Assembly: GCF_023091865.1 (NCBI RefSeq) | Contig: NZ_JAHXDI010000001.1 | Location: forward strand, 930,001 to 994,000 | From: Chromohalobacter moromii | GTDB taxonomy: Bacteria > Pseudomonadota > Gammaproteobacteria > Pseudomonadales > Halomonadaceae | Direction of reading: 5' to 3' | Length of the DNA: 64,000 nucleotides | Shown: piece by piece, positions 5,071 to 23,959 of the stretch | How the letters are laid out: the number at the start of each line of letters is the position of its first letter | Position numbering within the stretch: the stretch's first letter is position 1 | Translations under genes and position numbers: made by a program | The notes under the pieces: model-generated | The model's database searches: none | Told to the model about the DNA's origin: nothing | The model's input: only the letters and a program-made list of their open reading frames with translations

Positions 5071-5229
5071 TACAGAGTATCGATAAAGTGAGGTCTGTAT
5101 GACGCTTTATGTTACGCAGGTATCTCGTATCTCGTGTCTTGTTCGAGACTGACCCTATGGGGACCTGCTGTAAGGAGAACGATTGCTTCGATGAGTATGC
5201 TGCAATCGCCAACGATATCGTCTCGCGAC

Positions 5230-5704
5230 GTCAGCGTGGCCAGCCCTATCAGGTGGAGCGTGAAGCCCAGTCGCTGACCGTGGAAGAACGCCGACGACTA
5301 CGGAATACAAGAGCGAGGCCCATTACCGATGCGTTGCATCGCTGGATGCTGGCACATCGCGAGACAGTGCCGAACGGTTCGGCGTCGGCGAAAGCGTTGG
5401 ACTACAGCCTGAAGCGTTGGGCGGCGCTGACGCGCTACCTCGATGACGGCGGGTTGCCCATCGACAACAATCGGGTCGAGAACCTGATCCGCCCCTGGGC
5501 ACTGGGCCCCAGCAACTGGCTATTCGCCGGGTCACTGCGTAGCGGCCAGCGTGCGGCCAACATCATGAGCCGGATCCAGTCCGCCAAGCTGAACGGCCTT
5601 GAGCCGCATGCTTACCCGAGAAAGATGTGCTGGCTCAGCTGCCGACGCACAAGGCCAGCCAGATCCACGAACTCCTACCTCAGCACTGGAAACCGGGCGA
5701 CTGA
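5230..5704 (+). pseudogene. IS66-family transposase remnant (C-terminal part)
   Basis: The frame from about 5230 encodes the C-terminal end of an IS66 transposase: YQVEREAQSL, then ARPITDALHRWM, then IDNNRVENLIRPWALG, LFAGSLRSGQRAANIMS and SAKLNGLEPHAY. A frameshift near 5610 moves the end of the protein into another frame, where PEKDVLAQLPTHKASQIHEL is followed by LPQHWKPGD and a stop at 5702-5704. The N-terminal two-thirds of the transposase and the accessory IS66 genes are absent, so the element is dead. It marks past insertion-sequence activity between the Hsp70-like gene and the defence operon. Confidence 0.85.
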
Positions 5705-6139
5705 TTACTCGCGAAGGATAATGCCCGTGCGCTTACGTATCGCAGACCTTATGAGCAAGCCAACCAGCGCCATCGAGCGCTGGATCGACAGCTGGACCGA
5801 GATCGCTCTACAGGTGCTGTCCTGGCACGAGGGGTTGAACTGCCTTACCGTCTACTACCTCAAGAAAGCCGGCATCACCAGACCTCGATAGGTGCAATGA
5901 AGCAATGGCAGGCTGACAGACCCAAATTATTCTGGAAGTGCGTAATTAATCATTCGGGCCCCGACACTCCTCCCTCTTACTCAATTTAGTCAGCTGGCGT
6001 AACATGGCCTCCTAATACCCATAAGCGAGCTGGCCAGGGGTCTACGCCTCGTCGAAGCATCCCTATGCCGGCCTTGAACCTCGTCGCTGATCAGAGGGGC
6101 ACCCTGGTCGGCAGCAAGCAGCACTGCAGGGAGCAACCG
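5705..6139. other. Region upstream of the defence operon
   Basis: After the IS66 remnant a short frame (to 5891) containing MSKPTSAIERWIDSW is open but unrecognised; it may be more transposon debris. The rest, about 250 bp, has no gene and should contain the promoter of the ATPase gene that starts at 6140. No palindromic operator stood out. Confidence 0.45.
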
Positions 6140-9100
6140 ATGCGAGACGTCCTTTCCACCTGCCAGCCACGCCCCGAGATCCTGGCGGGCACTTTTAACC
6201 CCGAGATCTTCACGGCGAGCCTGAGCCGCGTGCTGGGCGACTATCGTAAGGGCGAGGCCCGCGAAGGGGCCAGCTCGCTCTACTCCGACCCAGTGGCCTT
6301 CTTCAGGGATGCCACACACCCGACCCAAGGCCTATGCACGATTCTGGACAACGTGTTAGCCAGGCTGACCAACGGCGACCTGTCCCGACCGGCGATGCAG
6401 CGGTTGGATACCGCCTTCGGTGGAGGTAAGACCCACACCCTAATCGCGTTGGCCCACGCGGCCATGCAGGGCAAGCCGCTGGCCGAGCACATGACGGGGA
6501 TCGTGGCGTCCGAGCGACTGCCAGAGCCTGGTCAAGTGCAAGTGGTGGGCATCATCGGCGACACCGTGGACACGCTGCGGGAAACCGCCGGAGGCTCGTC
6601 CAGCAAGCCCAACACCCTATGGTGGCAAATCGCCCAGCAGACCCTTTCATCCGACCAGCAGGCTTCCATCCAGGCACGCCTGGATGATGTCTCGGCGCCG
6701 GCCTCGGATGAGTTCTTCGAGACGCTGTTCGGCGACCGGCCGACGCTGATTATCGTCGATGAGATCGCCCAGTATCTCTCGCGCATGGAGGCCGCCTTCC
6801 CGGGCGTGGGGGCCGAGCAGACCGCTGCCTTCCTGATGTCGCTTTCGACCTATGCCGCCGGCAAGCCTAACGTGGCGGTGGTATTGAGCCTTGCCTCGGC
6901 GACCAATGCCTTCGGCGATTTCAACAAGCTGATCCGAAAGCTACAGTCCACTCACAGCATGAGCTCTGCGGAAGCCGAGGCAGTTGTCCAGGAGGCCCAG
7001 CGTGGCGTGCTGGACGTGGTGAACCGTACCTCGGAAGCGACCACGCCGGTTCAGGAAGGTGATCTGTCACGCATCATGGCCAAGCGCCTATTCGTGTCGG
7101 TCGATCTCGATGCGGCCCATGAAGTGGCCTCAGCATTTATCGAAACCTACCGCCAGGCAGGTACCGACCTGCCGGCCGGGGCCAACGATCCACAGCTGCA
7201 TGATCGCCTGGTGGCTCACTATCCCTTCCACCCCACGCTGATCGAGTTTCTCTCCGAGGAGCTGGCCCAGGTCGAGAGCTTTCAGGGTACCCGGGGGCTT
7301 CTACGCACCCTGGCACGGGCCGTGCGGCGGATCTGGGAGGCCAAGCTCGCTATCCCGCTGATCCAGACCGGCCATATCGATCTCTCGGATGGGACCATCC
7401 GCGGTGAGCTGCTGGGCAAGACGGACAACACCGATTTCGTCTCCGTGCTCGACTCCGATATTAGTAAGGCCTCAGGCACCCAGACCACTAGCCGCACCGT
7501 GGCCGGCGAACTGGATGCCGCCAACCCCCATCCCGATGGCTACCCGGTGCACGAGTGGGCTTGGCGCGTGGTTTTCCTGCACAGCCTGATCGGTCGTGGA
7601 GGTGGTCTGCAGGATGAGAAGTTCGGCATCGACATGACCTCGGCGGTCTATGAGATGGCCTCACCCGCGATCAAGCCGGCCACCGTGCGTTCCGCCCTGG
7701 AAACCATCGAGCGTGAGGCGAACTATCTCCGCGAGCGTAACGGTCGGCTGTATGCCGATACTGTACCGACGCTCAACAACATCCTGCGTCGCATCGAAGG
7801 CAACGTGGCCTACGCGGAGGCCATGACACGCGTCGAGCAGGTCGTTCGGGGCCTGATCAAGCAGTCGTCCGTGTTCGATATTCATCCCAATATCGATGAT
7901 GGTGAAGGGATTCCCGACAAGACGCGCAAGCCGCAGCTGGGCGTCATCGCCTTCGAGGTGGAAGAACTGGACCCGGCGCGCTTTATCGAGCGCCGCGGCG
8001 AGGCAGTTCGCGAGTACCAAAACCAGGTGTTCCTGCTGGCTCCCAGCACCACCCATATTGCCGGCTCGACCTGGACGGAAGCGCGTACGCACCAGGAGCA
8101 CCGCACCCGGCAGAACATCCTTACCCTGGCGCGCAAGGCCATCGCCGTGGAGCGCCTCAAGGAAAACCCCGAGAACTGGGGCGTTAGCCATGACCAGCTT
8201 CAAAAAGGTGAGTTCAGGGAGCGGGCCGCCAAGAGCCCGGCCGAGCTGCGCACGGCCATCGATGAAGCCTATCGTTTCCTGATCTACCCGGGGCGCGATG
8301 GTGGCCGCGTGGTGGTGCGCGATCTCGGCAAGCGTGGTGCCGGTCCCACCGCAGGTGGCTCCAGCGGCCTGCACCTGGAAGATGCCATCCTCAAGCAGCT
8401 TGCCGAGGAAGGCGAGCTTATCACCGAGGAACGTGCCTCCACCGCAGAAGCGGCGACGCTGCTTGGCAAGCTGTTCTTCGAGAACCAAAAGCAGGTCAAT
8501 GTCAGTGATCTCGTGGAGCGCTTCGCCACGCGCCGTAACTGGCCGATTCTGCAACGTCCAGCGCTGCTGGCCACCGTGCTGGTAGAAGGCGCCAAGCGCA
8601 GCAGCTGGTGTCTGGGCCACATGCCAGACAAGAAGGCCCACAAGCCCGATGCGCTGTATCACAAGGACAACCCGCCGCCGCTGACGGTGGAGCCTCTGGA
8701 AAAGGACGGCGAAGGCTGGATTCTCTGCACCAAGGAGCACGCCAAGCAGCTGGGCTGGCTGGAAAGCATCGTACGCGACCCCAACACCGTCGCCGCTTGG
8801 ATCGAGCAGACCATCCAGAGCCGCGATCAGGTCGACCTCACCCAACTGCCGCAGATCATCGAGCAAGAGCACGACAAGGTCGATCCACACGTCTACCAAC
8901 AGCAGCTGGAGAACCTCTTCGCTCAGCGGCAACTGGCGGCCTATCCTCAGGAAGCCTTCAATGAGGAAGGGGACGCCGACCCCGAGCAGGCGATGACAGG
9001 AGATACTGTACCTGTTGGCGGCGTAACCGGTGGCATCGTGGTGCCTTACCAGACGGCCCAGGCGCGAGGATGGATTACCAAACCTAAGGTAGAGAACCGC

Positions 9101-9406
9101 ATGCTTCTGCTGCGGGCGCCCGACAAGGTCAAGCAGCTCTTTCATATACTGTCCGGGACGGCACTTAGCCAATCGAAGACAGAGGTGCAATCACTGCAAA
9201 TTTCAGCGGAAACACCCGACAAAGGGCGTTTCCAGCTGGTCATGGGCCCTACCACAATAGGTGGCCTGGTAGAGAGCCGCTCCCTGTTCGCGGCCCTGAA
9301 CAGCCGATTGCGCTTCACGACTGAACAGCATCAGATCCGGCTGACCTTGGGTGAGCTGGATCAGAACTGCAAGTTCACCAAGATGCTCGATCAATTTGAA
9401 GGATAA
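6140..9406 (+). CDS. DUF499-type ATPase of a defence operon
   Basis: The 1088-aa product is a large P-loop ATPase. Walker A is DTAFGGGKTHTL (about residues 91-102, lysine 97) and the Walker B-like LIIVDEIAQYLSR has D207/E208. These match DUF499 family ATPases, which occur next to DUF1156 methylases in defence islands. The rest is helical with a long C-terminal portion of unknown role. It is the first gene of a + strand operon; the next gene starts 9 nt after its stop. The likely role is ATP-driven remodelling or signalling in a methylation-based anti-phage system, by analogy with other modification systems that carry a large ATPase; no activity is demonstrated here. Start ATG 6140 is chosen for the AGGGAG 8 nt upstream; an in-frame start at 6065 lacks one. 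Confidence 0.85.
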   Translation: MRDVLSTCQPRPEILAGTFNPEIFTASLSRVLGDYRKGEAREGASSLYSDPVAFFRDATHPTQGLCTILDNVLARLTNGDLSRPAMQRLDTAFGGGKTHTLIALAHAAMQGKPLAEHMTGIVASERLPEPGQVQVVGIIGDTVDTLRETAGGSSSKPNTLWWQIAQQTLSSDQQASIQARLDDVSAPASDEFFETLFGDRPTLIIVDEIAQYLSRMEAAFPGVGAEQTAAFLMSLSTYAAGKPNVAVVLSLASATNAFGDFNKLIRKLQSTHSMSSAEAEAVVQEAQRGVLDVVNRTSEATTPVQEGDLSRIMAKRLFVSVDLDAAHEVASAFIETYRQAGTDLPAGANDPQLHDRLVAHYPFHPTLIEFLSEELAQVESFQGTRGLLRTLARAVRRIWEAKLAIPLIQTGHIDLSDGTIRGELLGKTDNTDFVSVLDSDISKASGTQTTSRTVAGELDAANPHPDGYPVHEWAWRVVFLHSLIGRGGGLQDEKFGIDMTSAVYEMASPAIKPATVRSALETIEREANYLRERNGRLYADTVPTLNNILRRIEGNVAYAEAMTRVEQVVRGLIKQSSVFDIHPNIDDGEGIPDKTRKPQLGVIAFEVEELDPARFIERRGEAVREYQNQVFLLAPSTTHIAGSTWTEARTHQEHRTRQNILTLARKAIAVERLKENPENWGVSHDQLQKGEFRERAAKSPAELRTAIDEAYRFLIYPGRDGGRVVVRDLGKRGAGPTAGGSSGLHLEDAILKQLAEEGELITEERASTAEAATLLGKLFFENQKQVNVSDLVERFATRRNWPILQRPALLATVLVEGAKRSSWCLGHMPDKKAHKPDALYHKDNPPPLTVEPLEKDGEGWILCTKEHAKQLGWLESIVRDPNTVAAWIEQTIQSRDQVDLTQLPQIIEQEHDKVDPHVYQQQLENLFAQRQLAAYPQEAFNEEGDADPEQAMTGDTVPVGGVTGGIVVPYQTAQARGWITKPKVENRMLLLRAPDKVKQLFHILSGTALSQSKTEVQSLQISAETPDKGRFQLVMGPTTIGGLVESRSLFAALNSRLRFTTEQHQIRLTLGELDQNCKFTKMLDQFEG

Positions 9407-9415
9407 ACACGACCG

Positions 9416-10048
9416 ATGGCCACCACCGCCACCAAGACGGCGCCCCGCGGGCGCCGCAAGAGCTCACAGGCCGATGAAGCGCAGCTGGCCAAGCTGGCCA
9501 GGCGCTCGCCCTATGTGCTGCGCCTGACGCGCCACAAGGATCTGCCGCCCCCGGTGCTGGTCGTCAAGGAGCGCATCGCCCCGGAAGACCGTGACGATAC
9601 CGAAGGGTTGACCAACCCCCGCGCCAAGCATATGGAGCGTGGCACCCTGCATGGCGAGAGCGTGCGTGCGTGCCTGCCGGTACTCAAGCGCATCCTGGAA
9701 GAGGTAAAGGACGAGCAGGGTATCCCACTGGGCCTGGAGCGTTTCATGTCCGCCCAGGGGCTCAAGCAGACCGACGTGAACTTTCCCCTAGACGAAGCTG
9801 CCGGCGCGCGCCTGGCGCTGTTCTTTCGCCTGCAGACCAAGGTGAAGGACGTCGACCGCATCGAGTTGATCGGCCGTCGGGTCGCGATGTTCTCCCGGGA
9901 AGAGGCCGTCTACTGGCTGGCCAACGTGACAACAGCCGACCCGGCGCTGCGCAGCTGGGCCACCAGTGGGCTGCGCATGCTGCTTTGCGGCGAGGCTGGT
10001 GACAAGCGGGTGCCACGCATCCTGGAGAAAGTGCGTGCCCGTGGCTGA
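9416..10048 (+). CDS. 210-aa defence-operon protein
   Basis: This is a small protein between the DUF499 ATPase and the DUF1156 methylase. The N-terminal 25 residues are basic and Thr/Lys/Arg-rich, suggesting nucleic acid contact or a flexible tail. The middle contains ESVRACLPVLKRILEEV, and a conserved-looking block FSREEAVYWLANVT precedes SGLRMLLCGE near the C-terminus. Related operons carry a small DUF protein at this position, but I cannot assign the family with confidence. No catalytic motif or membrane segment is visible. It lies 9 nt after the ATPase stop, so it is almost certainly co-translated. A subunit or adaptor of the ATPase-methylase complex is the natural inference. Confidence 0.65.
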   Translation: MATTATKTAPRGRRKSSQADEAQLAKLARRSPYVLRLTRHKDLPPPVLVVKERIAPEDRDDTEGLTNPRAKHMERGTLHGESVRACLPVLKRILEEVKDEQGIPLGLERFMSAQGLKQTDVNFPLDEAAGARLALFFRLQTKVKDVDRIELIGRRVAMFSREEAVYWLANVTTADPALRSWATSGLRMLLCGEAGDKRVPRILEKVRARG

Positions 10049-10132
10049 GGGATAGGAATCGACGTGGCTCGCAGAGCGGGCCGGAATGGCAGTTTAGCCG
10101 TACCAAGAACGGCAGCGCCAAGAACGAATGAT

Positions 10133-10155
10133 CAGCCAGGCCGGTTGCCTGGCTG
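10133..10155 (+). promoter_or_regulatory. Intra-operon hairpin before the methylase start
   Basis: A perfect 9-bp stem CAGCCAGGC/GCCTGGCTG with loop CGGTT lies in the 132-nt gap between the 210-aa gene and the methylase, ending 9 nt before the ribosome binding site (AGAGGAAG, 10165-10172). It has no T run, so it is more likely an attenuator, mRNA-stability or processing element than a terminator. The function is inferred. Confidence 0.5.
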
Positions 10156-10180
10156 TCGCCTTGTTAGAGGAAGCAACCGT

Positions 10181-13100
10181 ATGGACGTCAACGAATCAGG
10201 CCTGACTGCTACCAGCATGCCGACTACCAGCACCGCCCAGTCATTGATCGACGATCAGCGCCTGATTGAAGCTGGGTTCCCCTGCCACCAGGTGGGAGCG
10301 GAAACCCAGCGTGAGCGAGGTGCCAGCTCGGCGTTGCCGCCGCTCTATTATCTGCACGTTTGGTGGGCACGGCGCCCCCTGACGCCCAGCCGCGCGGCCA
10401 TCCTGGCCTCTCTGCTGCCTGCTGATGCCGACTCTGAGGAGTTTGTGAAAAGCCTTGGGATTCGACTGCAAGTAGCCAAGGTTGGTGGCGTTGGGTGGGT
10501 TCTGGGTGAAGCCAAGCTTCGTGATCGGGTTACTGTGCGTGATGGTCAAGCGATACTAGAAGTGGATGGGGTCATTCACCGTGCCTTGATAAAGGAGCAG
10601 GAAGCACGCTCCGAACAGCAGGTCTTAATCAGGAAAATGCTCGATAAGACGCCTGAGCTTGCAGAGGAAGAAGCTATACAGAAATGGCAACAGCTAGTTC
10701 AGGATTTCCCTTATCTGCCGCAGCAGGGAGAAAGGCTCCACGTTCATGAAGAAATGGGCGACCCTGCCTGGTTCAAGGAACTAATGGAGCTTGCCAAGCA
10801 AGCAGGGGTGAGGGTGCCGAACCTTTACGGCTATGATCGTGCGTACCAGAATGCAGCACCGCTTACCAAAGAGCCCAAGGTGATTCTGGATCCCACTTCT
10901 GGTGGCGGCTCTATCCCTTTCGAGGCGCTTCGCCTCGGCCATAAAGTCATCGCAAATGAGCTTAACCCTGTTGCCAGCATCATACTCAAAGCTACTCTAG
11001 ACTTTCCGGTGCGTTTTGGCAGTGAGCTGCTGCAGGATATTAGGCGTTGGGGGGAGCTCCTTGAATCTTCCCTCGACGAAAAGATGCGGCCTTTTTTCCC
11101 TAGCTGCGATGCTGAAATTGATCTGTCGCACCCTAAAGCAGTTAATCGAGATGCGTCTTATCTTTATTGCCGACAGGTGACCTGTCCCCACTGTGCCGGC
11201 GATGCTCCGCTGCTCAACTCCCTGTGGCTCTCGAAAGAAGGCGAGAAATGGGGCGTGGCGGTCAAACCCCAGCCCGACAGGACGGTGCGCTTTGAGCCCT
11301 TCGAGATGACAAGCGGCAATCGCGGCCCAAATGGTGAGGACCTGGATGCTGGAACCGTTAGCCGTGGCGTGGGTCAATGCGTCCACTGCCACCAGGCGAT
11401 CTCGGGTGATGAGATCAAGCGCCAGGCCCGTGGCGAGTCTGAGCTGGGCAAATGGAAGGACGTGCTCTACTGCGTGGTCGGCATCCGTATCGAGCCCAAG
11501 CTCGACAAACATGGCAAGGTGCAGCGCTTCGCCTCAGGTGAGCGGAAGGGAGAGATCAAGACAGGCAAGATGCGTTACTTCCGTGCGGCGAATCAGAAAG
11601 ATTTTGAAGCGCTACAGGCGGCAGAGCAGGAGCTGGAAGAGCGTCATCTCGAGTTTGAGATGAAGGGCCTGGTTCCTAACGAGCCATTTCCGCCTGGTAA
11701 CGACATGCGCCCGGTCAACTATGGCATGCCAACCTGGGCAGATCTGTTTACTCCACGACAGCTGCTTGGTCACTTGACGGTAATGGAGGCTCTTCAAGAG
11801 GCGAAGCCGTCGATTCTTTCAGAGTTAGGAGAAGAAAAAGGGCGAGCGCTGATTACCTACCTTCAGTTCGCGATCGATAAGATCGTTGACTATAACAGCC
11901 GACAGACTCGTTGGGAGTATACTCGGGGTGTCATTAAAGGCGGCTTTGGTCGACATGACTTTTCCTTGAAGTGGACCTTCGGTGAGATGGTGTATGCTGG
12001 ACCCTCTTCAGGGTTTAAATGGGGCCTTTCTCAAGCGACCGATGCCTATAAGGGGTTAGCAGAGCTGGTGAAAGAGCGGAGTGCTCTCGGTGTCGAGGAC
12101 GGTGATATATTGCAGATTCAAGGGTCGGCGACAGATATGTCTAATGTCGCCAAGGAAAGTGTTGATGCCGTTGTAATGGATCCGCCTTATTATGACAACG
12201 TCCAATACAGTGAGCTCTCCGACTTCTACTACGTCTGGCAGAAAAAGACGTTGGGTGATTTGTATCCAGGCTGGTTTGATCAGGAAGTGACTGATAAAGC
12301 GCTGGAGGCTGTCGCCAATCCAGCTCGTGATGGGTCAGCCAAGAGTGCCAAGGGGCGCTACGAGGAGCTGATGCAGGGCATCTTTGCCGAGAGCAAGCGG
12401 GTGCTGAAGCCGGACGGCATCATGACGCTGATGTTTACCCACAAGAGCTCCGATGCCTGGGAAACGCTGACCAATGCCTTGATCCAGGCAGGGTGGGACA
12501 TTACGGCCTGCATGCCGGTTGAGTCGGAAAGCGGCTATTCCACCCACCAGATGAATATGGCTTCGGCGGCTTCCACCATCTTTATTGCCTGCCGTCCGGC
12601 TGAACGCCATGAGCGTGAGCCCTCCAGCTGGGCGTACGAAGTGAAGGGAAAACTGGAAACCGCGGTGCGTGAAGGCCTGGGAGAGTTCGAGCGCCTCAAG
12701 CTCAACCCCGTCGACCGCATGATCGCCTCCTGGGGCCGAGCGCTGCGCGTCTACTCCGCCCACTGGCCGGTGCAGGATGGCGACGAGGACGTACCCCCCA
12801 CCCGCGCCATGCAAGAAGCGGCCCGCGTGGTGGCCGAGGAAGAGGTCAGCCGGCTTTCCGGTGGCCTCGTCACCGTCGACGACCTGGATGCCGAATCCCG
12901 CCTGGCGGTGATTGCGCTCGGTATCAACGGTCTGGGCGATTTCGCCTTCGATGACGCTCTGCAGATGAGTCGGTCCCTCAGCTTCCGCCTGCAGAACCGC
13001 AACGGCAACTACCGAGTCAGCGACGACATGGTGGCCTACGCCTACGCCAACGCCAACGCCAACGCCAACGCCAACGTCGGCGAAGACGAGCGCGCCGCTC

Positions 13101-13369
13101 CGCTGGCCATCAAGGGTAACAAGCTGCGTCTGCTCAAGCCGGAAGAGCGTGCCGCTGCGCGCCTGGATAACCCCCAGACCCTGTGGGATGTGCTGGGTGG
13201 GTTAATCGTCACCTACCGCGACGGCGGCATCGTCGCAGCACGTAACTTCCTGGCTCAGCATGGCAAGCGCGACAGCGAGGCTCTGCGCGGTCTACTCAAA
13301 GTGTGGGCCAAGGAATGCCGCGACGACGAGCTCAAGCGCGAAGCCCAGCTGATCGACTACGAACTCTAA
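10181..13369 (+). CDS. DUF1156-type adenine DNA methyltransferase
   Basis: The 1062-aa product is a large N6-adenine methylase. The N-terminus has the DUF1156 pattern (LIEAGFPCHQVGAE, then VWWARRPLTPSRAAILAS at about residue 58). The SAM-binding motif region DPTSGGGSIPFEA starts at D237, and the catalytic motif DPPYYDNVQYSEL is at residues 667-679. A Cys pair CPHC (near 333) and a second CVHC (near 400) suggest a zinc ribbon. The inferred role is self-DNA modification, or sensing of it, in the defence operon. Start ATG 10181 follows AGAGGAAG; an upstream in-frame extension to 10064 is unlikely. The middle of the gene (about 10440-11180 and 11600-12340) is visibly less GC-rich than its ends, suggesting a mosaic. 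A run of Ala-Asn dipeptides near residue 960 comes from a hexanucleotide repeat. Confidence 0.88.
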   Translation: MDVNESGLTATSMPTTSTAQSLIDDQRLIEAGFPCHQVGAETQRERGASSALPPLYYLHVWWARRPLTPSRAAILASLLPADADSEEFVKSLGIRLQVAKVGGVGWVLGEAKLRDRVTVRDGQAILEVDGVIHRALIKEQEARSEQQVLIRKMLDKTPELAEEEAIQKWQQLVQDFPYLPQQGERLHVHEEMGDPAWFKELMELAKQAGVRVPNLYGYDRAYQNAAPLTKEPKVILDPTSGGGSIPFEALRLGHKVIANELNPVASIILKATLDFPVRFGSELLQDIRRWGELLESSLDEKMRPFFPSCDAEIDLSHPKAVNRDASYLYCRQVTCPHCAGDAPLLNSLWLSKEGEKWGVAVKPQPDRTVRFEPFEMTSGNRGPNGEDLDAGTVSRGVGQCVHCHQAISGDEIKRQARGESELGKWKDVLYCVVGIRIEPKLDKHGKVQRFASGERKGEIKTGKMRYFRAANQKDFEALQAAEQELEERHLEFEMKGLVPNEPFPPGNDMRPVNYGMPTWADLFTPRQLLGHLTVMEALQEAKPSILSELGEEKGRALITYLQFAIDKIVDYNSRQTRWEYTRGVIKGGFGRHDFSLKWTFGEMVYAGPSSGFKWGLSQATDAYKGLAELVKERSALGVEDGDILQIQGSATDMSNVAKESVDAVVMDPPYYDNVQYSELSDFYYVWQKKTLGDLYPGWFDQEVTDKALEAVANPARDGSAKSAKGRYEELMQGIFAESKRVLKPDGIMTLMFTHKSSDAWETLTNALIQAGWDITACMPVESESGYSTHQMNMASAASTIFIACRPAERHEREPSSWAYEVKGKLETAVREGLGEFERLKLNPVDRMIASWGRALRVYSAHWPVQDGDEDVPPTRAMQEAARVVAEEEVSRLSGGLVTVDDLDAESRLAVIALGINGLGDFAFDDALQMSRSLSFRLQNRNGNYRVSDDMVAYAYANANANANANVGEDERAAPLAIKGNKLRLLKPEERAAARLDNPQTLWDVLGGLIVTYRDGGIVAARNFLAQHGKRDSEALRGLLKVWAKECRDDELKREAQLIDYEL
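13046..13075 (+). repeat. Tandem hexanucleotide repeat (GCCAAC)x5 in the methylase gene
   Basis: Five perfect GCCAAC units are preceded by two GCCTAC units (13034-13045). They encode an (Ala-Tyr)2(Ala-Asn)5 stretch in the C-terminal part of the methylase. Unit length is a multiple of three, so gain or loss changes linker length and not the reading frame. Confidence 0.95.
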
Positions 13370-13386
13370 TTTTACAAGGAGGTTGT

Positions 13387-15099
13387 ATGAGCTCTATTAA
13401 GGGAGCAGAACTTAAACTGCATAAAGTGTTTTCAAGCGATTTTCAGTTTGAAATACCAGACTACCAACGGCCTTACTCATGGCAGGCCGAACATGCTGAA
13501 GAGCTTTTGGATGATCTCTGGACGTTTCGTGAGCAGGAAGATAAGAGCGAAGAGTATTTCCTTGGCAGTGTAGTTCTTATTAAAAGTGATCAGTCAAACC
13601 AAACGGATGTCGTGGATGGCCAGCAACGGCTGACTACGTTGACCATTTTGCTTGCTGCCATTCGTGATCGGCTTAAAAGCCACACTAAGTGGGGCGGCGC
13701 CTTCGATAAGTACATTATGGAGCCAGGGGATATCACTCTGGATCTTTCCCCTAAACCCCGCCTTTTTCTGCGCAAAAAAGATCTCAGCTTTTTTGAAAAG
13801 TATATTCAAAGCCCCGGGGGGATTGAGGAGCTGGCGAATCTCGATGCCAGTCGGTACAAAGACTCCAAGCTTAATATAATTAATAATGCCCGGGCCTTTC
13901 AGAACCGGCTGGCGGATATTGATGACGAATTGGTAGGTCAATTTGGACAATTTGTCGTTCAGAAATGCCTGTTGGTCCTAGTGACAACCGAAAACTTCAA
14001 ATCGGCATACCGTATTTTCTCAGTAATGAATGACCGCGGCCTGGAGCTCGCCCCTTCAGATATTTTGAAAGCCAACATTGTCAGTAGCATCGGGGAGCAT
14101 GAGAGAGAGGGGTATACTGAACTATGGGAAGATATGGAAGAACGCTTAGGACGTGATAATTTTAATGACCTTTTTGCTCATGTTAGGATGATTTTTCGTA
14201 AGGAGAAGTATCGTCGTTCTGTTCTTGATGAATTTACTGATTATGTAGTGAAACCGAGCGTCAGTGGAAAGAAATTACTTGATGATGTGCTGTTGCCTTA
14301 CACGGATACGCTTGAAGTTATCATGACTCGAAGTTTCAAAAGCGAGGAAAATGCTAACAGAGTTAATGAGTTAATCGAGTGGCTACACTATCTGAATAAC
14401 AGCGATTGGATACCAGTGGCGATGGAGCTTATTCGTCGTTTCGATACCGATACGGATAAGCTTAGGGCGCACCTTGAAAAGCTAGAGCGTCTGGGGGCAA
14501 GCTTATTTATCCGTGGCGTTTATGCTACCCCGCGCATCAATCGCTTTGGTGATGTGCTCCACGAGCTAGAGGAGGGCAAGGATCTCTTGGTAGAAGGCTC
14601 AGCACTTGATCTGGACCACAATGAGCGTCGAGATACATTATATTGGCTGAACAGCCATGTTTATCGCTATTCAGGAAGGCTCCGTTTGTACATCATGATG
14701 CGCCTTGATGCCTTTATGTCCGATCAGTATGTGAGTTATCGCGAAAGAACTAAAACAATCGAACATGTTTTGCCACAAAATCCTGCCACACAGTCTCAAT
14801 GGCGTAAGGACTGGAGCGATGAGCAGCGTGAGGATTGGGTCGATCGCATTGGAAATCTATTGCTATTAAGTCGTAAAAAGAACTCAGAGGCATCTAACTA
14901 TGATTTTTTACAAAAAAAGGATCGGTATTTTAGGTCTCGAACAGGAGTGTCAAATTATGCAATATCGACAGACGTCCTTAATCATAGTGACTGGAAGCCA
15001 GTTACTGTAAAAACTCGGCAAAAGTTTCTGATTAACCTATTTGCTGAGAAATGGGCACTAAAAACTGGCTTAACATGGGACGATCTCGAAATTCTCTAA
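13387..15099 (+). CDS. GmrSD-like DUF262/DUF1524 nuclease
   Basis: The 570-aa protein carries the two hallmarks of single-chain GmrSD-type type IV restriction enzymes. The N-terminal DUF262 domain has IPDYQRPYSW (around residues 23-32) and the ParB-like VVDGQQRLTTL motif starting near residue 75. The C-terminal DUF1524 domain has the His-Me-like EHVLPQNP motif (E459, H460), then GNLLLLSRKKNSEASN (491-506). Enzymes of this family cleave modified phage DNA or act with modification systems; NTP binding is attributed to the DUF262 part. The gene starts 17 nt after the methylase with an AAGGAGG site. Its composition is clearly more AT-rich than either neighbour, so it looks like a module inserted into the operon. 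Confidence 0.85.
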   Translation: MSSIKGAELKLHKVFSSDFQFEIPDYQRPYSWQAEHAEELLDDLWTFREQEDKSEEYFLGSVVLIKSDQSNQTDVVDGQQRLTTLTILLAAIRDRLKSHTKWGGAFDKYIMEPGDITLDLSPKPRLFLRKKDLSFFEKYIQSPGGIEELANLDASRYKDSKLNIINNARAFQNRLADIDDELVGQFGQFVVQKCLLVLVTTENFKSAYRIFSVMNDRGLELAPSDILKANIVSSIGEHEREGYTELWEDMEERLGRDNFNDLFAHVRMIFRKEKYRRSVLDEFTDYVVKPSVSGKKLLDDVLLPYTDTLEVIMTRSFKSEENANRVNELIEWLHYLNNSDWIPVAMELIRRFDTDTDKLRAHLEKLERLGASLFIRGVYATPRINRFGDVLHELEEGKDLLVEGSALDLDHNERRDTLYWLNSHVYRYSGRLRLYIMMRLDAFMSDQYVSYRERTKTIEHVLPQNPATQSQWRKDWSDEQREDWVDRIGNLLLLSRKKNSEASNYDFLQKKDRYFRSRTGVSNYAISTDVLNHSDWKPVTVKTRQKFLINLFAEKWALKTGLTWDDLEIL

Positions 15100-15117
15100 C
15101 TTGAGGGCTTGCTGGCT

Positions 15118-15798
15118 ATGACTGGATTCTTCCGCTTCCCCCATACACCGCACCTTGTCTGGCTCGGCGAGGGAGAGTCCCGCGACGACAAACTGCTCGA
15201 TCCCCCCGAGATCGAGGCGCTGCTAGCTGGCGACGTGCTGGCTGAGGAGAAGCTCGACGGTGCCAATTTGGGCATTTCCTGGGGAGATGAAGGCCAGCTG
15301 CGTATGCAGAATCGTGGTGCCTATCTCGAGGCGCCTTACCGCGGCCAGTTCTCTCGCCTGAACCAGTGGCTGATGCAACACCTCGCGGTGTTCCAGCAGC
15401 ACCTACCCGGTCACGTCATTCTATTCGGCGAGTGGTGCGCAGCGCGCCACTCGCTGGATTATGCCGCCTTGCCGGATTGGTTCCTGATTTTCGATGTTTA
15501 CGACCGTCAGGCCCAGCGATTCTGGAACCACGATAGACGCAATGCCTTGGCCAGTCGGCTCGGCCTATCTGTTGTGCCGCTACTCAAGCGGAGGTGTTTC
15601 ACCGTCAAGGAGTTGGAAGCTCTGGTGCATACCGGTCGCAGCGCCTACCGGAATGGCAAGCTGGAAGGCCTCGTGATCCGCCAGGATGGGCCAAAGTGGT
15701 GTGAACACCGCGCCAAGCTGGTTCACCCTGATTTTGTGCAACAAATCGAGGAGCACTGGCGGTCAAGGGCCTTGGAGTGGAATGAGCTTCTCTCTTGA
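15118..15798 (+). CDS. RNA-ligase-like nucleotidyltransferase
   Basis: The 226-aa protein shows the motifs of the covalent nucleotidyltransferase superfamily as in Rnl2-like RNA ligases: motif I EEKLDGANLG with the adenylated lysine K45, motif III LFGEWC (102-107), motif IV LEGLVIR (182-188) and motif V-like AKLVHPDF with K200. The expected activity is ATP-dependent sealing of 3'-OH/5'-phosphate ends, probably RNA, in the cytoplasm. Only the catalytic domain is present; no extra domain is visible. The start used is ATG 15118, with TTGAGGG 10 nt upstream; a TTG at 15109 is too close to that site. It lies between a nuclease and a helicase gene, so repair of self RNA or DNA cut by the system, or capping of an end, is a plausible inference. 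Confidence 0.85.
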   Translation: MTGFFRFPHTPHLVWLGEGESRDDKLLDPPEIEALLAGDVLAEEKLDGANLGISWGDEGQLRMQNRGAYLEAPYRGQFSRLNQWLMQHLAVFQQHLPGHVILFGEWCAARHSLDYAALPDWFLIFDVYDRQAQRFWNHDRRNALASRLGLSVVPLLKRRCFTVKELEALVHTGRSAYRNGKLEGLVIRQDGPKWCEHRAKLVHPDFVQQIEEHWRSRALEWNELLS

Positions 15799-15850
15799 GT
15801 CGTATGCTGGTCGAGCTACACAGGGCAGAACTTAGTGAATGAGGCCAAAC

Positions 15851-18800
15851 ATGGCAATTCGTAATTTCGACTGGGAGCCCAGCTATGCCACCTCCGATAT
15901 CCGTGAGGATGGCAAGCTTGTCGATGTGCTGCACGACTTCTATATCCCGGCGCTGAGACGGTCGACCCGCTATGATCGTGTCGCCGGCTATTTCACGTCT
16001 TCGTCGCTTGCAGCGGCGTCACAAGGCTTTTCGCATTTCGTCGAAAACGGTGGTGTGGCGCGCCTCGTGGTAGGCATGCAGCTCGACCCTGAAGATGCCG
16101 CCGCGATTCTGCAGGGCGATGAGCAGCGTGCCAGTCAGGTGATGCTGGCCGAGTTAGAGTCCTCCCAACAATGGCCCACCGCATTACGCCATGGCGTCGA
16201 ACTGTTGGCATGGATGGTGGCTCATGGCCATCTGACCATTCGGGTGGGGCTACGTGTGCATGCGCAGAACGGAACCCCTCAGTCAATGGAGTTTGCCCAA
16301 GATGGCTACCTGCATGAAAAGTGGGCCATTATTGGCGATGGTCAGGATGAGCTATTCATTTCGGGTTCGTTGAACGAATCTCGAACGGCGCTTGCCATCA
16401 ATGCCGAAAACATCACCGTCCAGCCCTCGTGGGAAGAGTGGAATCGTAAGCTCTTCGTACAAAAGCATCGCAGCTTTCTCGCTCTTTGGGAGGGGAAGCA
16501 TCCTGCTATCAAGACGTTCTCTCTGCCTGAGGCGGTCAAGGCCGAGCTGGTGAAAATCGCCAGTAGCACCAGTGAGCTGTTTGAGATCGATGGCACGCCC
16601 ATGTCGCGGGATTCACATGAAGTCCGTGAAAAAGACGAGCTCAAGCCGAGCTTATCCGAGCGCCTTCGCTTCGCCATGATCCGTCTGGCACCATTGCTTC
16701 CCGGTGGCGAACGAGTCGGGATCGAGACCACTCCCATTGAGCCATGGCCGCATCAGCGCTTCGTGGCCAGCCGCTTGCTGGACACATATCCACGTAACCA
16801 TCTGCTCTGTGATGAGGTAGGTCTCGGCAAGACCATCGAGGCGGGCCTGGCTTTCCGCGCCCTATGGCTCAGTGGCCGTGCCAGCTCAATACGGGTGTTC
16901 GCGCCTGCCTCGTTGACCTCGCAGTGGTTGGTTGAGATGGCCGAGAAGTTCTTCCTGCCCTTCGTGAGGCGCACGAGTCGAAAGGGACGCTGGGAGTGTC
17001 TTGACATGCTCAGCGGCGAGCCTATCCAGGGCGATGGCCAGATGTTCGATGCCCCGCTGGAGATCGTCTCTACTGGCCTGGTTATCAACCGCCATGGGGG
17101 GCGATTGCTGGCGAATTTGCCAGAGACGGACCTGGTACTGGTGGATGAGGCCCACAAGGCCAGGCGCCAGACGCCCGATAACCAGACCACCATGCCTCGC
17201 TTCAATAAGCTCTATCAGGAGCTGCAGAGCTCGCTGTATGGCAACTCACGGACCCTGCTGCTGGCCACGGCGACACCGATGCAGCTCAATCGGGTCGAGG
17301 CCTTTGATCTGCTGAAGCTGATGCCCTCTGCAGGTGCCGTACAGTTCTCCGAAGACCTATGCGAGATCTTCTACCGGGTCCGGGACAAGCTGCTGAACAA
17401 CGATCCCATGGCGGACTACGAAAGCGAGTGGCTACGTCGCTACCTGAACAATGTCCGCGCCTCATCGCCCGAGCAGTGGAAGTTCGTAAATGATCATGTG
17501 CTGAGTCTGTTTGGCAAAACAGGGCTGGGGGATTTTACTGATCGCGGGCTGGACCCGTTGAGCTGGGATGAAGTTCAACCGGCGCTGAGCTTACTGGCAC
17601 CACTGGGACGTAGCATGCTTCGCCACACCCGCTCGCTCCTGCGTGCTTACCAGCGAGAGGGCTTGCTGAACGCTAACCTGGCCTGGCGGGAAGTCCACCC
17701 GGGCATCATCCCGCTTGCTAGGGTGGAGCGTGAGGTCTATGACGAGCTTCAGGCTTACTGTGCCGAATTGGCCAGCCATATGGCGGCCAACATAGAAGAG
17801 GGTCAACAGAGGGCAGCTATCGGTTTCTACCTCAGCTTCCTGCGCCTCCGTTATTCGTCCTCCTTCCATGCACTGCGCTGCTCTCTCGAGCGGCGACTGG
17901 AAAAGATCCAGCAGACTCTCGACCACAAGGCGCAGCAGTTCGCCAATAGCGGCGCCGACCGGGAAGAGTTGGAAGAGCTACTTGATGAAGAGGTCGAAGG
18001 GTTGATCCTCAAGCATCGCACCGAAAGTGACCTGACGTGGGAGCAGGGCGCTGTAGCCCGTTTGATTTCCACAATGGACCGGCTCCCGACGATGCCGTCT
18101 AAGATGCAGCAGTTGCTGAAGGACATCGAAAAGCGACGAACCAATGGCACTGACCGTGTACGGCAGTTGGTACTGTTTACACGCTACGCCGACACCATGA
18201 ACTACCTTCATGACGAGTTGAGGCGGCTACTCCCTGGATGTCCAATCGGCACCTTCTCCGGAGCTGGTGGTACCCTGCGCCGTGCTGGTGAGTACCATCC
18301 TGAAAGGCTTGATCGCACGACGATCAAGCAACGTTTCGTCGCTGGCAATATCGACATCCTGCTATGTACAGATGCGGCAGCAGAAGGTTTGAACCTGCAG
18401 AGCGCTGACCTGCTGATCAACTTCGATCTGCCGTGGAATCCGATGATGCTGGAGCAGCGCATCGGCCGCATCGATCGTATCGGTCAGCATCACGAGCACA
18501 TTCACGTGCTTAACTACCTCTACCAGGATAGCGTGGAGGAGGTGGTGTACTCGCGCTTGGTCAGGCGTTTCCGTGAGGCACTTACTGTATCCGGCGAGCT
18601 GCAATTCTCGCTCCTGCCCATCCAGCCAGAGGATTTCGAGGATTACGCCAAGGCAGAAGGTGAAGAGGACAAGATTGATGAAGAGGAGCTGATTCGCCGA
18701 GCCCAGCGGCATGCCGAGCGCATCAAGGAGCGACAACAGCTCACGGAGTTCAAGGCGGAAGAGCAGAAGGCGGCCTATGAGCATCTCGAGGCCCAGCGTC

Positions 18801-19627
18801 GTGCAGAGCCGATGCCGGCGACTCTGGAGGATATCTGGCGGGCCATTAGCGAGAGTCAGTATCTCAGGGCTCTGGGAGGCGGCATCGAAAGCTTCAAGCA
18901 TGGGGATGCTTACCGGGTGGTCGACGTCCCCGGGTTACCTAAGGAAGTATTGCTGACGACCTCCCGGTGGCTCTATGAGCATGGCCTTGGGGAATCTGAT
19001 TATCGCAGGCTGCACTTTGCGACCTTTGGCGACCCTGTCTTTGAGAAGCTGCTGGATTACATGCTGCAACCACTGGAATCTGTGCAAGCCGCATGGCAGT
19101 CGCGCAAACCACTGGCATCAGTGCGCGTAGCTGACCATGACCTGGAAACCTTCGAGGAAGCCTTTGGCATTGAAATTGGTGAAGAACCCGAGATTGAGCT
19201 AGTAGAGCGCTTCCTCCCGTTAGCGAAACGACAAGATGACCGGATAGGGCGTCAGCAGAGAGTCATGCTGGATACGGTATCCGCCAGCCTCGCTGAGCTG
19301 AAGCTAAAACCCAACCCCGATACAGCTAATAACCAGATTGCTGAGATTGATCAGTTCCGATCTGATGTCAACAACCGACATGGACAACGAGTGCATCTGA
19401 AATTTGATGCGACGGATCGTAGTGGAATGCTGGTGTTGAAGGACAAGCTTTTGTGGCCAGTGTTACAAAAGAATGATGGGCTAACAGTCGATGCGGATCC
19501 TCTGCTGTTAAGTGCAGCTCGAGATGTCATATTCAGGCAGCTAGGAGATATGAAAAAAGACAGTCGGACTAGTCATGATGTGGCAAAGAGGTTGGCTGCA
19601 TATGCAAAAGAATTTTCGGGGGGGTGA
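15851..19627 (+). CDS. PLD-SNF2 helicase fusion of the defence operon
   Basis: The 1258-aa protein combines an N-terminal phospholipase D-like domain with an SNF2/Swi2 helicase. The PLD part contains YDRVAGYFTSSSL and an HxK motif LHEKWAIIGDG (H155, K157), then FISGSLNES. Helicase motifs are DEVGLGKTIEAG (Walker A, 321-332), VDEAHKARRQ (DEAH at 432-435), LLATATPMQLN, TDAAAEGLNLQ (841-851) and EQRIGRIDRIGQ (868-879). Only one HxK is obvious, so the PLD domain would need to dimerise or may be inactive. Such fusions translocate on and may cleave invader DNA. Start ATG 15851 has GAGG 6 nt upstream; an in-frame ATG at 15839 has a poorer site. The C-terminal part is a long acidic coiled-coil-like region and an unassigned domain. 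Confidence 0.88.
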   Translation: MAIRNFDWEPSYATSDIREDGKLVDVLHDFYIPALRRSTRYDRVAGYFTSSSLAAASQGFSHFVENGGVARLVVGMQLDPEDAAAILQGDEQRASQVMLAELESSQQWPTALRHGVELLAWMVAHGHLTIRVGLRVHAQNGTPQSMEFAQDGYLHEKWAIIGDGQDELFISGSLNESRTALAINAENITVQPSWEEWNRKLFVQKHRSFLALWEGKHPAIKTFSLPEAVKAELVKIASSTSELFEIDGTPMSRDSHEVREKDELKPSLSERLRFAMIRLAPLLPGGERVGIETTPIEPWPHQRFVASRLLDTYPRNHLLCDEVGLGKTIEAGLAFRALWLSGRASSIRVFAPASLTSQWLVEMAEKFFLPFVRRTSRKGRWECLDMLSGEPIQGDGQMFDAPLEIVSTGLVINRHGGRLLANLPETDLVLVDEAHKARRQTPDNQTTMPRFNKLYQELQSSLYGNSRTLLLATATPMQLNRVEAFDLLKLMPSAGAVQFSEDLCEIFYRVRDKLLNNDPMADYESEWLRRYLNNVRASSPEQWKFVNDHVLSLFGKTGLGDFTDRGLDPLSWDEVQPALSLLAPLGRSMLRHTRSLLRAYQREGLLNANLAWREVHPGIIPLARVEREVYDELQAYCAELASHMAANIEEGQQRAAIGFYLSFLRLRYSSSFHALRCSLERRLEKIQQTLDHKAQQFANSGADREELEELLDEEVEGLILKHRTESDLTWEQGAVARLISTMDRLPTMPSKMQQLLKDIEKRRTNGTDRVRQLVLFTRYADTMNYLHDELRRLLPGCPIGTFSGAGGTLRRAGEYHPERLDRTTIKQRFVAGNIDILLCTDAAAEGLNLQSADLLINFDLPWNPMMLEQRIGRIDRIGQHHEHIHVLNYLYQDSVEEVVYSRLVRRFREALTVSGELQFSLLPIQPEDFEDYAKAEGEEDKIDEEELIRRAQRHAERIKERQQLTEFKAEEQKAAYEHLEAQRRAEPMPATLEDIWRAISESQYLRALGGGIESFKHGDAYRVVDVPGLPKEVLLTTSRWLYEHGLGESDYRRLHFATFGDPVFEKLLDYMLQPLESVQAAWQSRKPLASVRVADHDLETFEEAFGIEIGEEPEIELVERFLPLAKRQDDRIGRQQRVMLDTVSASLAELKLKPNPDTANNQIAEIDQFRSDVNNRHGQRVHLKFDATDRSGMLVLKDKLLWPVLQKNDGLTVDADPLLLSAARDVIFRQLGDMKKDSRTSHDVAKRLAAYAKEFSGG

Positions 19628-19754
19628 AGTTGGTTTCTCTCGCAATGTCTTGTTCGGATGTCTCGATATATAAAAACTATTAAATAATTATATATCTCTG
19701 CCGATATGGATATTAATTTTTTCATTATTACACTTCGGGTGACAAGGATGCATG

Positions 19755-20501
19755 ATGGAAAATACTCTTGACATAAGAGGGGACGAGGATCTTCTTGAGC
19801 TGCTGATGAATGCAGACAAAGAGGATATATCACTGTTGATCGATCATTTGACCGATAATGGAAAAGGACGCATTTCTCTTCCGAAATCGGTTCGAATACA
19901 GCTATGTAATGCTCAGGAGAAAAGGAAATATTCAGAAGCTATTATTAGATTGCTTATTCGTGAGATTCAATGTTTTGGCGGGAATAGCTTTGCTAATACC
20001 TTTAGAAGAAACGGCGTCCCTTACGCAGAAATATTGAAAGATGTGACTGAAAGCTTGGGGTGTGTACGTTCAGATACTGATAGCGTTGAAGATATAGAAA
20101 TTAAGCTTTTAAATAAGGTTGCTGAAAAAGCATGGGAGAACATGACGGACGAAGAAAAAGAATCCCTTGCTCGGCAGTTTGGTTTTAGTGTTGTAAGAGA
20201 TGGGTTGGGGGTGTCGCATATAAAAGAAAAGATTGCGAATGAGAACCTGTCTTCTCTTACCATGGCTAAAATTCTTTCTGGCGGTTTTGCATCTATACTT
20301 GGAAGAGCACCTAGCCTTGGCCTTGGCGTAAAGACTTTGCTGTCTAGAATACCACTTGGGATTGCTGGAGGGGTGGCTGGGGGGTTCTTAACTGCCGCCG
20401 CGGGTGCATATGGGCTTTCTCGGCAGGCTTATCGAGTAACCACGCCATGCGCCGTGCAAATTGCATATATACGGCAGAAGTCAATTCAGAATAATACTTA
20501 A
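19755..20501 (+). CDS. YaaW-family protein (DUF3944/Ubiq_cyt_C_chap-like)
   Basis: The 248-aa protein matches the architecture of E. coli YaaW. An N-terminal block with ELLMNADKEDISLLIDHL and DNGKGRISLP is followed by EIQCFGGNSFANTFR and GVPYAEILKDV, then a Gly/Ala-rich hydrophobic C-terminus (GIAGGVAGGFLTAAAGAYG) and the terminal SRQAYRVTTPCAVQIAYIR. The hydrophobic segment suggests membrane insertion. The molecular function of the family is unknown. The coding sequence is markedly AT-rich compared with the genome, indicating transfer. AAGGA at 19744-19748 favours the ATG at 19755 over the one at 19752. It probably forms a unit with the next gene, 32 nt downstream. Confidence 0.75.
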   Translation: MENTLDIRGDEDLLELLMNADKEDISLLIDHLTDNGKGRISLPKSVRIQLCNAQEKRKYSEAIIRLLIREIQCFGGNSFANTFRRNGVPYAEILKDVTESLGCVRSDTDSVEDIEIKLLNKVAEKAWENMTDEEKESLARQFGFSVVRDGLGVSHIKEKIANENLSSLTMAKILSGGFASILGRAPSLGLGVKTLLSRIPLGIAGGVAGGFLTAAAGAYGLSRQAYRVTTPCAVQIAYIRQKSIQNNT

Positions 20502-20533
20502 GTATATATTTGCTAACTTAAGAGGAGGTGATT

Positions 20534-21655
20534 ATGCGACAGCCCAGTTATGAGGGTGAAAAGGCTCCAGTGGTAGCGTTAGGTGCTACCAGCGAAGCAC
20601 CATTGATAAAGTTTTATGCATTAGAAAATGACCACAGTTTTAATAAAAAACACAAAATCAATATCGAGGAATCTGGGGTAGATAGGCTGTCACCATTGTT
20701 TCAGGCAATTCCTGGGGTGTTAATTAAAGGGAAGGAAAGCAGTGAGAAGATAATGAAAGTGGTTGTCAACGGCCCCCTGAGCTCAGCTGCAGACGGGGAT
20801 GGGTTGAGAGCCTTTGTACGAGATTCAAAAAATCAATTCACTGAACATGCTAGGCTATATGAGGCGGATGGCCTATCTCAGTTAATTGGTGCCAATGCAG
20901 TGTTTAATATTGCATCTGCAGTGGTTGCACAAAAACATCTTGCTGACATAAATGAAAAGCTGATAGAAATAAAAGATGGTATTGAAAAGATTAAGGCATT
21001 TCAGGAGAATGAAAGAAGGTCGAAAATAACAGGCACTGTTGAATACCTCCAACAAGTCTCGCCAGTGGTGATTGGCGGCAAAGCTTCACCACATGTTCGC
21101 CAACAGCTAGAAGAGTTTGAAAGCAACCTTGCACAGGTGCAGCACCATCTAACTCAAGATGTCCAAGACTTTTCGGACGATAAAATATTTTCTCCCAAAA
21201 AGTTTGATTTTTTCGGAAAAAGTGTCAGGCAGGGGATACTGAAACGACAAGCAGAAATGTCTGATGTTTTGCAACAGTGGTGGCTCTGTTTTTCTTCACG
21301 AATTCTTGCTTGTAGGTTGCTGGCTTACTTCCCTGGTGAGAGCGAATTAGCAAAAGCCAGGTATGCCCATCTAAAAAATATAGCAGACAAGTTTTTTAAT
21401 GAAGATGTAAGTGCCTTCTTGGCTTCCATTCGACCTGCAATAGATTCCACGTCTTCCATATTTGAAACAAAGTCTGAGCAATTTGCCAATAGGATTTCTC
21501 TTCTAGAGTGGGAGGAAGAGTTTTTACATGACTTTTTGAATAAAGCCAGGTTTGGTATAAGTAGCAATGAGGCGTGCCTTATTGAGAATGAAAGTCCAGT
21601 AGAGATTTTCGTCAGGGTTAACGAAGGGAAAATAGAGCAGTGCTATGCTCAATGA
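20534..21655 (+). CDS. Unrecognised 373-aa partner of the YaaW-like protein
   Basis: I do not recognise this protein. The first 110 residues look globular. A central hydrophobic helix (GANAVFNIASAVVAQKHL, near 120-137) is followed by a coiled-coil-like segment LADINEKLIEIKDGIEKIK that is typical of signalling or toxin-type linker regions. The C-terminal half is helical. ATG 20534 follows a strong AGAGGAGG site; a GTG at 20528 overlaps that site. AT-rich codon usage matches the YaaW-like gene, so the two arrived together. By position and composition it could be a two-component defence or stress module; there is no direct evidence. Confidence 0.6.
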   Translation: MRQPSYEGEKAPVVALGATSEAPLIKFYALENDHSFNKKHKINIEESGVDRLSPLFQAIPGVLIKGKESSEKIMKVVVNGPLSSAADGDGLRAFVRDSKNQFTEHARLYEADGLSQLIGANAVFNIASAVVAQKHLADINEKLIEIKDGIEKIKAFQENERRSKITGTVEYLQQVSPVVIGGKASPHVRQQLEEFESNLAQVQHHLTQDVQDFSDDKIFSPKKFDFFGKSVRQGILKRQAEMSDVLQQWWLCFSSRILACRLLAYFPGESELAKARYAHLKNIADKFFNEDVSAFLASIRPAIDSTSSIFETKSEQFANRISLLEWEEEFLHDFLNKARFGISSNEACLIENESPVEIFVRVNEGKIEQCYAQ

Positions 21656-23663: not shown

Positions 23664-23959
23664 TTTTTTAGGACATCGTTTTCCTCCTCAAGCTCCGCAA
23701 TCCGGCGTTTGAGGCGGGTGAGTTCATCCTGCTCCCTGACCTTTTCCTTGGCCTCGGCAGGCGCTTTCTTGACCCGTTTCATGGCAAATTTTCCCTCTCG
23801 GTACTCCTTTCGCCAGCGTGACAGCATGAACGGGTGAATATCCAGCGCTTCCGCGACCCCTTGGACGCTTCGGTGAGCCTGATGGCTCCACTCGACCGCC
23901 TTCACCTTGAACTCAGTGCTGTAACGTTGCGTTTTCTTCCCCGTGATGATTGCGGGCAT
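23588..23959 (-). CDS. IS3-family OrfA
   Basis: The 123-aa product has an N-terminal helix-turn-helix (FKVKAVEWSHQAHRSVQGVA, then HPFMLSRWRKEYREG) that binds the terminal repeats. A C-terminal leucine-zipper-like coiled coil follows (LTRLKRRIAELEEENDVLKK). It overlaps the OrfB frame; the slippery heptamer A AAA AAG lies at 23669-23663 and gives the OrfAB transposase. Alone, OrfA usually represses transposition. Confidence 0.9.
   Translation of the reverse strand: MPAIITGKKTQRYSTEFKVKAVEWSHQAHRSVQGVAEALDIHPFMLSRWRKEYREGKFAMKRVKKAPAEAKEKVREQDELTRLKRRIAELEEENDVLKKFQRFQAEERRKRSGSSGNTGNDTA
23663..23671 (-). promoter_or_regulatory. Programmed -1 frameshift site
   Basis: Reading on the minus strand in the OrfA frame the codons are CTA AAA AAG, containing the classical A6G slippery heptamer. 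The -1 frame after it is open straight into OrfB. This is the standard way IS3-family elements make transposase. Confidence 0.85.

Follow-up and report, generated by a model that had tools for sequence, protein, structure and literature searches.

A DUF7680-type BREX-related defence cassette in Chromohalobacter moromii with exchangeable cargo and a predicted orphan RNA ligase

We describe a cassette of six genes at positions 6140-19627 of a 64,000-nt stretch of the Chromohalobacter moromii genome (contig NZ_JAHXDI010000001.1, positions 930,001 to 994,000), which we call the window. The cassette joins an invariant core, a DUF7680 variant of the BREX-related (BR) systems that are elsewhere named Hma, with two exchangeable cargo genes: a GmrSD-like nuclease that would act as a second layer of defence, and an RNA-ligase-family protein that has probably been kept as a working RNA sealer. 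We put the probability of this account as a whole at about 0.6. Going by its relatives, the ligase is the orphan third gene of a HEC-03-type module (HEC stands for Hma-embedded candidate), a form that is new here. All six genes are intact and co-oriented on the + strand. With the starts that relatives support (6140, 9416, 10181, 13387, 15118 and 15851), the gaps between them are 9, 132, 17, 18 and 52 nt, as an earlier, sequence-only reading of the window had given them. The cassette is more than a chance run of genes, because 12 Halomonadaceae loci share its core and its frames align over their full length to those of relatives.

Four of the genes, all on the + strand, form the core. The first (6140-9406; open frame from 6065) encodes an HmaC-like DUF499 AAA+ ATPase with the motifs GGGKT and IIVDE (Pfam DUF499 8.6e-33; PADLOC HmaC 4.8e-66). 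The second (9416-10048), which the sequence-only reading had called a small partner, belongs to the named family DUF7680 (PF24728, 2.9e-32). The third (10181-13369; open frame from 10064) encodes an HmaB-like adenine-type DNA methylase of the DUF1156 family (Pfam DUF1156 8.7e-14; HmaB 2.7e-67), with the motifs DPTSGGGSIP and DPPY and two CxxC motifs. The last gene of the cassette (15851-19627) encodes the putative effector, a SNF2 helicase with an HKD/PLD nuclease at its N-terminus and the motifs HEK...D, GSLN, DEVGLGKT, DEAH and QRIGRIDRIGQ. The NCBIfam model phospholipD_antiphage matches it over residues 31-967 (2.2e-92), the PADLOC model PLD_Helicase at 4e-65, and Pfam adds Helicase_C (6.6e-17), SNF2 (2.5e-7) and a sub-threshold PLDc_2 (0.0029). 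These PADLOC matches are the outcome of the search against defence-system profiles that had been proposed as a check. Together with Pfam, NCBIfam and the motifs, they uphold the families first named from the letters: P-loop ATPase, adenine methylase, DUF262/DUF1524 nuclease, KxDG nucleotidyltransferase and PLD-SNF2 protein.

Of 275 Halomonadaceae genomes, 11 have DUF7680 and one of these has two copies, which gives 12 loci including the window. The order DUF499-DUF7680-methylase-[slot]-helicase is the same in 12/12, and the DUF499 protein of the window is 69-96% identical to the copies in the 11 other loci. The same core is found outside the family, in locus L041 and in the viral contig L137, and in all core loci DUF7680 lies between DUF499 and the methylase. 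A survey of January 2026 (PMC12839542) defines as BREX-related the systems that combine a DUF499 ATPase, a DUF1156 N6-methylase and a helicase, and reports them from thousands of taxa; the window has all three together. According to the same survey, the helicase of Type-2 BR systems carries a fused HKD nuclease, and their loci include DUF3780, as a standalone gene in 98% of taxa. The window shares with Type-2 BR the ATPase, the methylase, the N-terminal HKD/PLD nuclease on the SNF2 helicase and a small fourth gene ahead of the methylase, but this gene is DUF7680 where Type-2 has DUF3780. A model search finds no DUF3780 in the genome of the window, while the same model matches in 5/229 other genomes. 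Type-3 BR differs by having PglZ and iSTAND in its core; none of the six cassette proteins of the window, all otherwise accounted for, matches PglZ. The core overlaps the PADLOC models Hma and DUF499/DUF1156/PLD_Helicase, and all three of its proteins with NCBIfam equivalogs score far below the equivalog cut-offs, so that they represent a divergent branch. Judged by sequence, the core is a DUF499-centred BR/Hma system of a DUF7680 variant, nearest to Type-2 BR. The sequence-only reading had seen a cassette resembling restriction-modification, built on DUF499 and DUF1156 and distinct from DISARM. This is borne out, and the type of core had already been described as Hma/BR (PMC12839542).

DUF7680 sits ahead of the methylase, where Type-2 BR has DUF3780. 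Its AlphaFold2 model (pLDDT 74) has four strands and then five helices, and this predicted secondary structure resembles the published description of DUF3780. Homology between the two families is not demonstrated by profile comparison (hhalign, P 0.26, not significant), and neither sequence nor Foldseek searches with DUF7680 give a convincing match in the PDB. Used as a lone query, DUF7680 finds nothing in viral contigs or plasmids; alignment-based queries did better. A literature search that did not cover preprints found no mention of the family. The DUF7680-type branch is new here and is added to the known BREX-related systems.

We give next to no credence to the reading of the cassette as a DISARM variant. 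The two have SNF2 helicase, methylase and PLD domain types in common, and the helicase and PLD domains of the window match the DrmD and DrmA profiles. These matches, however, come through the shared SNF2 helicase domain and lie below the NCBIfam cut-offs, the methylase is of another family, and the cassette has no DUF1998 (DrmB), which rules out membership in DISARM. The earlier remark that DrmA and DrmB are not seen in the cassette agrees with this.

Between the methylase stop and the helicase start lies a cargo slot (13370-15850, +). In the window it holds first a GmrSD-like type IV nuclease (13387-15099, +; GmrSD_N 3.5e-39, GmrSD_C 4.9e-28) with both a DUF262 domain (DGQQR) and a DUF1524 HNH domain, and the further motifs EHVLP and GNL. 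This fusion, the intact motifs and the setting in a restriction-modification-like locus are those of GmrSD type IV restriction enzymes, including BREX back-ups and PADLOC Orf5 / HEC-06; the protein itself has nothing unusual. The second cargo gene (15118-15798, +) encodes a nucleotidyltransferase of the RNA ligase family (RNA_ligase PF09414 4.8e-32), in which motifs I, III, IIIa, IV and V read KLDG, FGEW, FDVYD, EGLVIR and RAKLV, with catalytic positions that are invariant among 10 aligned ligases. Catalytic motifs are intact in all five enzymes of the cassette (Walker A/B; methylase motif I and DPPY; DGQQR and HNH; ligase I-V; the HKD half-site and SNF2).

Among the 12 Halomonadaceae loci, the pair GmrSD-ligase occupies the slot in the window only. 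Six loci (L043, L044, L045, L046, L047 and L052) have ABC-PIN-ligase-GmrSD, where ABC and PIN are an ATPase gene and a small gene described below, and two (L018 and L048) have ABC-PIN-ligase. The slot contains GmrSD-AbiU in L050, MNT-HEPN in L049, and in L051 a HEPN-like protein, assigned by eye, with a ParA-type ATPase. Outside the family, L041 has AbiLi/AbiLii, and the viral-collection contig L137 (6672-16437) has a bare DUF499-DUF7680-methylase-helicase with an empty slot and a gap of 6 nt between methylase and helicase. As the contents differ among relatives and the slot is empty in L137, it is a cargo site, and GmrSD and ligase are exchangeable cargo rather than core parts. This agrees with the published view that Hma/BREX loci can harbour embedded defences (PMC12839542), and it bears out the earlier view of the nuclease and the ligase as additions, since they come and go across loci. 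One genome (G591) has two DUF7680-type loci with unlike cargo, L050 and L043. In L049, two tandem GmrSD-like genes (13714-17609) follow just after the helicase, outside the slot.

That the six genes are one co-evolved six-component machine is very unlikely. They share an orientation and short gaps, and GmrSD and ligase adjoin in six relatives too, in the reverse order; against this, order is not kept, three Halomonadaceae loci are without the ligase, and four are without GmrSD in the slot. GmrSD proteins are moreover 50-64% identical among loci, compared with 65-98% for the core, with the sole exception of the L050 GmrSD, which is 87% identical to that of the window. The combined system that the sequence-only reading had in mind stands for the restriction-modification-like core (12/12), and falls as a six-gene unit (GmrSD in 8/12, ligase in 9/12). 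The analysis of neighbourhoods that it had put forward as a possible refutation divides in the same way, with an invariant core and a slot that is otherwise filled by AbiL, AbiU, MNT-HEPN or HEPN-like genes or is empty.

Comparison of the window with L043 and L050 locates the exchange that produced its cargo. Aligned with L043, the window DNA is homologous as far as the methylase stop at 13369; from there to the ligase ATG nothing matches, after which homology covers 15118-15788 and begins again from 15872; the ligase DNA is 87% identical and gapless, the helicase 92%. Against L050, homology is unbroken from the methylase through the end of GmrSD (15106), at 74%, and the L050 GmrSD also directly follows its methylase. 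The GmrSD gene of the window has a GC content of 44%, the other five cassette genes 57-67%. In a tree of the ligases, the window copy falls within the Halomonadaceae ABC-PIN-ligase clade (support 100/100) as sister to L052 (98/80). The mosaic edges at 13369 and 15118, the low GC content and the nested ligase together imply that the locus lost its ABC and PIN genes and that GmrSD came in their place, exactly between the methylase stop and the ligase start according to the alignments. No trace of either lost gene (HEC-03A for PIN, HEC-03B for ABC) is found within the window; in its genome HEC-03A is absent and HEC-03B has one partial weak match only. No repeats that might explain the swap are present at the cargo borders. 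The comparison shows a cargo swap within such an operon at near base-pair resolution.

The module from which the ligase derives is widespread and regular. For ligase relatives above ~38% identity, nearly all complete loci place the ligase immediately behind two genes, one of ~178 aa and one for an OLD-type ABC ATPase, which PADLOC identifies as HEC-03A (e-27) and HEC-03B (e-129), respectively. All three genes are present in 8/9 ligase-bearing Halomonadaceae loci, the window being the exception. Free-standing ABC-PIN-ligase modules are found on plasmids of Azotobacter, Aeromonas, Tistrella and Rhodococcus, and the module occurs also in the viral contigs L088, L090 and L091. Of 398 sampled Pseudomonadota genomes, HEC-03A occurs in 14, with the ligase adjacent in 10/14. 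In most copies the PIN stop and the ligase start overlap by 4-8 nt, which speaks for co-translation. In L071 (284-14690), a PglZ-bearing BREX-like locus with a methylase, a Ppl-like ATPase, a pAgo-like protein, a helicase and PglZ encloses ABC-PIN-ligase, so the module is not confined to a single host system. The PADLOC definition of HEC-03 consists of A and B only, to which our loci add the ligase as adjacent third gene; in the window A and B are gone and the ligase alone is left. The literature search, again without preprints, found HEC-03 named only in passing or unrelatedly and no paper naming the ligase, and the word "ligase" does not appear in PMC12839542. Within the reach of that search, it is new that HEC-03, until now listed as a two-gene module, regularly includes the RNA ligase as its third gene.

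HEC-03A is probably a PIN-like RNase. The acidic residues that mark PIN RNases are invariant in it (a D-T-N, E, D..D, D pattern), and the best 11 structural neighbours of its model (VIA-align) are all PIN-domain proteins (VapC, FitB and kin), at Z of 4.4-5.1 only. A search of its profile against the PDB returned only de novo TIM barrels, which we judge to be chance. HEC-03B, an OLD-type ABC protein, matches AriA weakly and in this resembles PARIS (AriA OLD-ABC and AriB Toprim); the partner in HEC-03 is, in contrast, of PIN type and not Toprim, a ligase is added, and of these genes the window holds only the ligase. The ligase itself finds nothing in the PDB with phmmer, and its profile gives weak matches to archaeal and Naegleria RNA ligases.

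For the ABC-PIN-ligase module we consider a cut-and-seal mode of action most likely. The ABC protein would gate the PIN RNase, and RNA cut by this RNase, probably tRNA, would be resealed by the ligase. Cleavage by PIN nucleases yields 5'-phosphate and 3'-OH termini, which are exactly what Rnl-type ligases join, so that the ligase of the parent module could undo PIN cuts without end healing. The suggestion that the ligase contributes repair or sensing, already part of the sequence-only reading, gains context from this module, whose first two genes are missing in the window. Here the orphan ligase would most likely be a still-working sealer that limits RNA damage by RNases of other defences or of invaders. 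Several observations weigh against this reading of the module and its orphan. Four of the 14 HEC-03A loci are without the ligase, though a strict antidote role predicts none. On an Acinetobacter soli plasmid (L079, 6639-9296), an HNH nuclease stands at the position of the ligase after HEC-03B/HEC-03A. The HEC-03A model has a modest pLDDT of 67 and no significant match in Foldseek. Finally, the constraint on the ligase is not datable relative to the loss of its partners, and fits a working orphan or a very recent one.

There is a real, though lesser, chance that the orphan is instead a relic, left over from a recent exchange of cargo and bound to decay, with only GmrSD and the core at work. The two partner genes upstream have disappeared, the edge of the exchange falls exactly on the ligase start, and elsewhere a partnerless ligase fragment (L021/L008) is broken by a stop. 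The window ligase, however, has an intact frame and all its motifs. Its ratio of non-synonymous to synonymous substitution rates (dN/dS) against the nearest relatives is 0.14-0.19, and its synonymous : non-synonymous codon changes are 17 : 10 in the window lineage, compared with 20 : 10 in that of L043. We therefore see no sign of relaxed selection. On balance, a retained sealing role is somewhat more likely than a relic.

A rather improbable alternative is that the third gene of HEC-03 is an effector slot and the ligase an effector, a nucleotidyltransferase that modifies or mis-joins RNA and so halts phage growth. The HNH nuclease in third place in L079 would suit this, as would the build of the ligase, a single-domain protein with no visible C-terminal RNA domain. 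The PIN protein, however, already provides a nuclease, and the motifs are those of sealing ligases. Distant kin also speak for sealing. On an 80-kb viral contig (L089, 5998-6663), a lone HEC-03-type ligase of 45% identity has no PIN or ABC gene nearby, as RNA repair predicts, and on a Pseudomonas aeruginosa plasmid (L016, 7956-9974) a distant RNA ligase lies beside an HD + AAA_33 (kinase-type) protein, an arrangement that suggests a pair for healing and sealing RNA ends.

Without PIN or ABC, the L089 ligase fits a counter-measure, as when phage T4 repairs the damage done by PrrC (PMC12409363), and we regard it as a candidate for one. T4 Pnkp/Rnl1 repairs RNA cut by an ABC-gated nuclease, the anticodon nuclease PrrC, much as the ligase of HEC-03 would seal PIN cuts. 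The T4 ligase is phage-encoded, whereas that of HEC-03 belongs to the defence itself, and the ends left by PIN would not have to be healed first. If the ligase seals PIN RNase cuts, the module would be an immune device with built-in repair, and phages with the same ligase alone would have a natural countermeasure. More tentatively, and in our view less probably true than not, ABC-PIN-ligase would be a cut-and-seal device in which defence-encoded repair makes growth arrest reversible, and the sealer of the window would have split off as a stand-alone immunity gene, mirrored by lone phage ligases such as that of L089.

For the rest of the cassette, we follow the published BR model. The DUF1156 methylase would mark host DNA, the DUF499 ATPase with DUF7680 would assemble on DNA and inspect it, and the PLD-SNF2 helicase would translocate and cut unmarked invader DNA. 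GmrSD would add a second-layer nuclease against modified phage DNA.

The surroundings are those of a defence island edged by insertion sequence (IS) remains. An IS66 transposase fragment (5109-5891) precedes the cassette and an IS3-type transposase pair (22779-23959) lies behind it, and beyond this pair is an HSDR_N-type nuclease gene (24038-25114, -). Directly after the cassette, a JukA-like gene (19752-20501; PADLOC JukA 2.8e-41) is followed by an unassigned gene of 375 aa (20528-21655); both have ~42% GC, and they are possibly a Juk-type anti-jumbo-phage pair.

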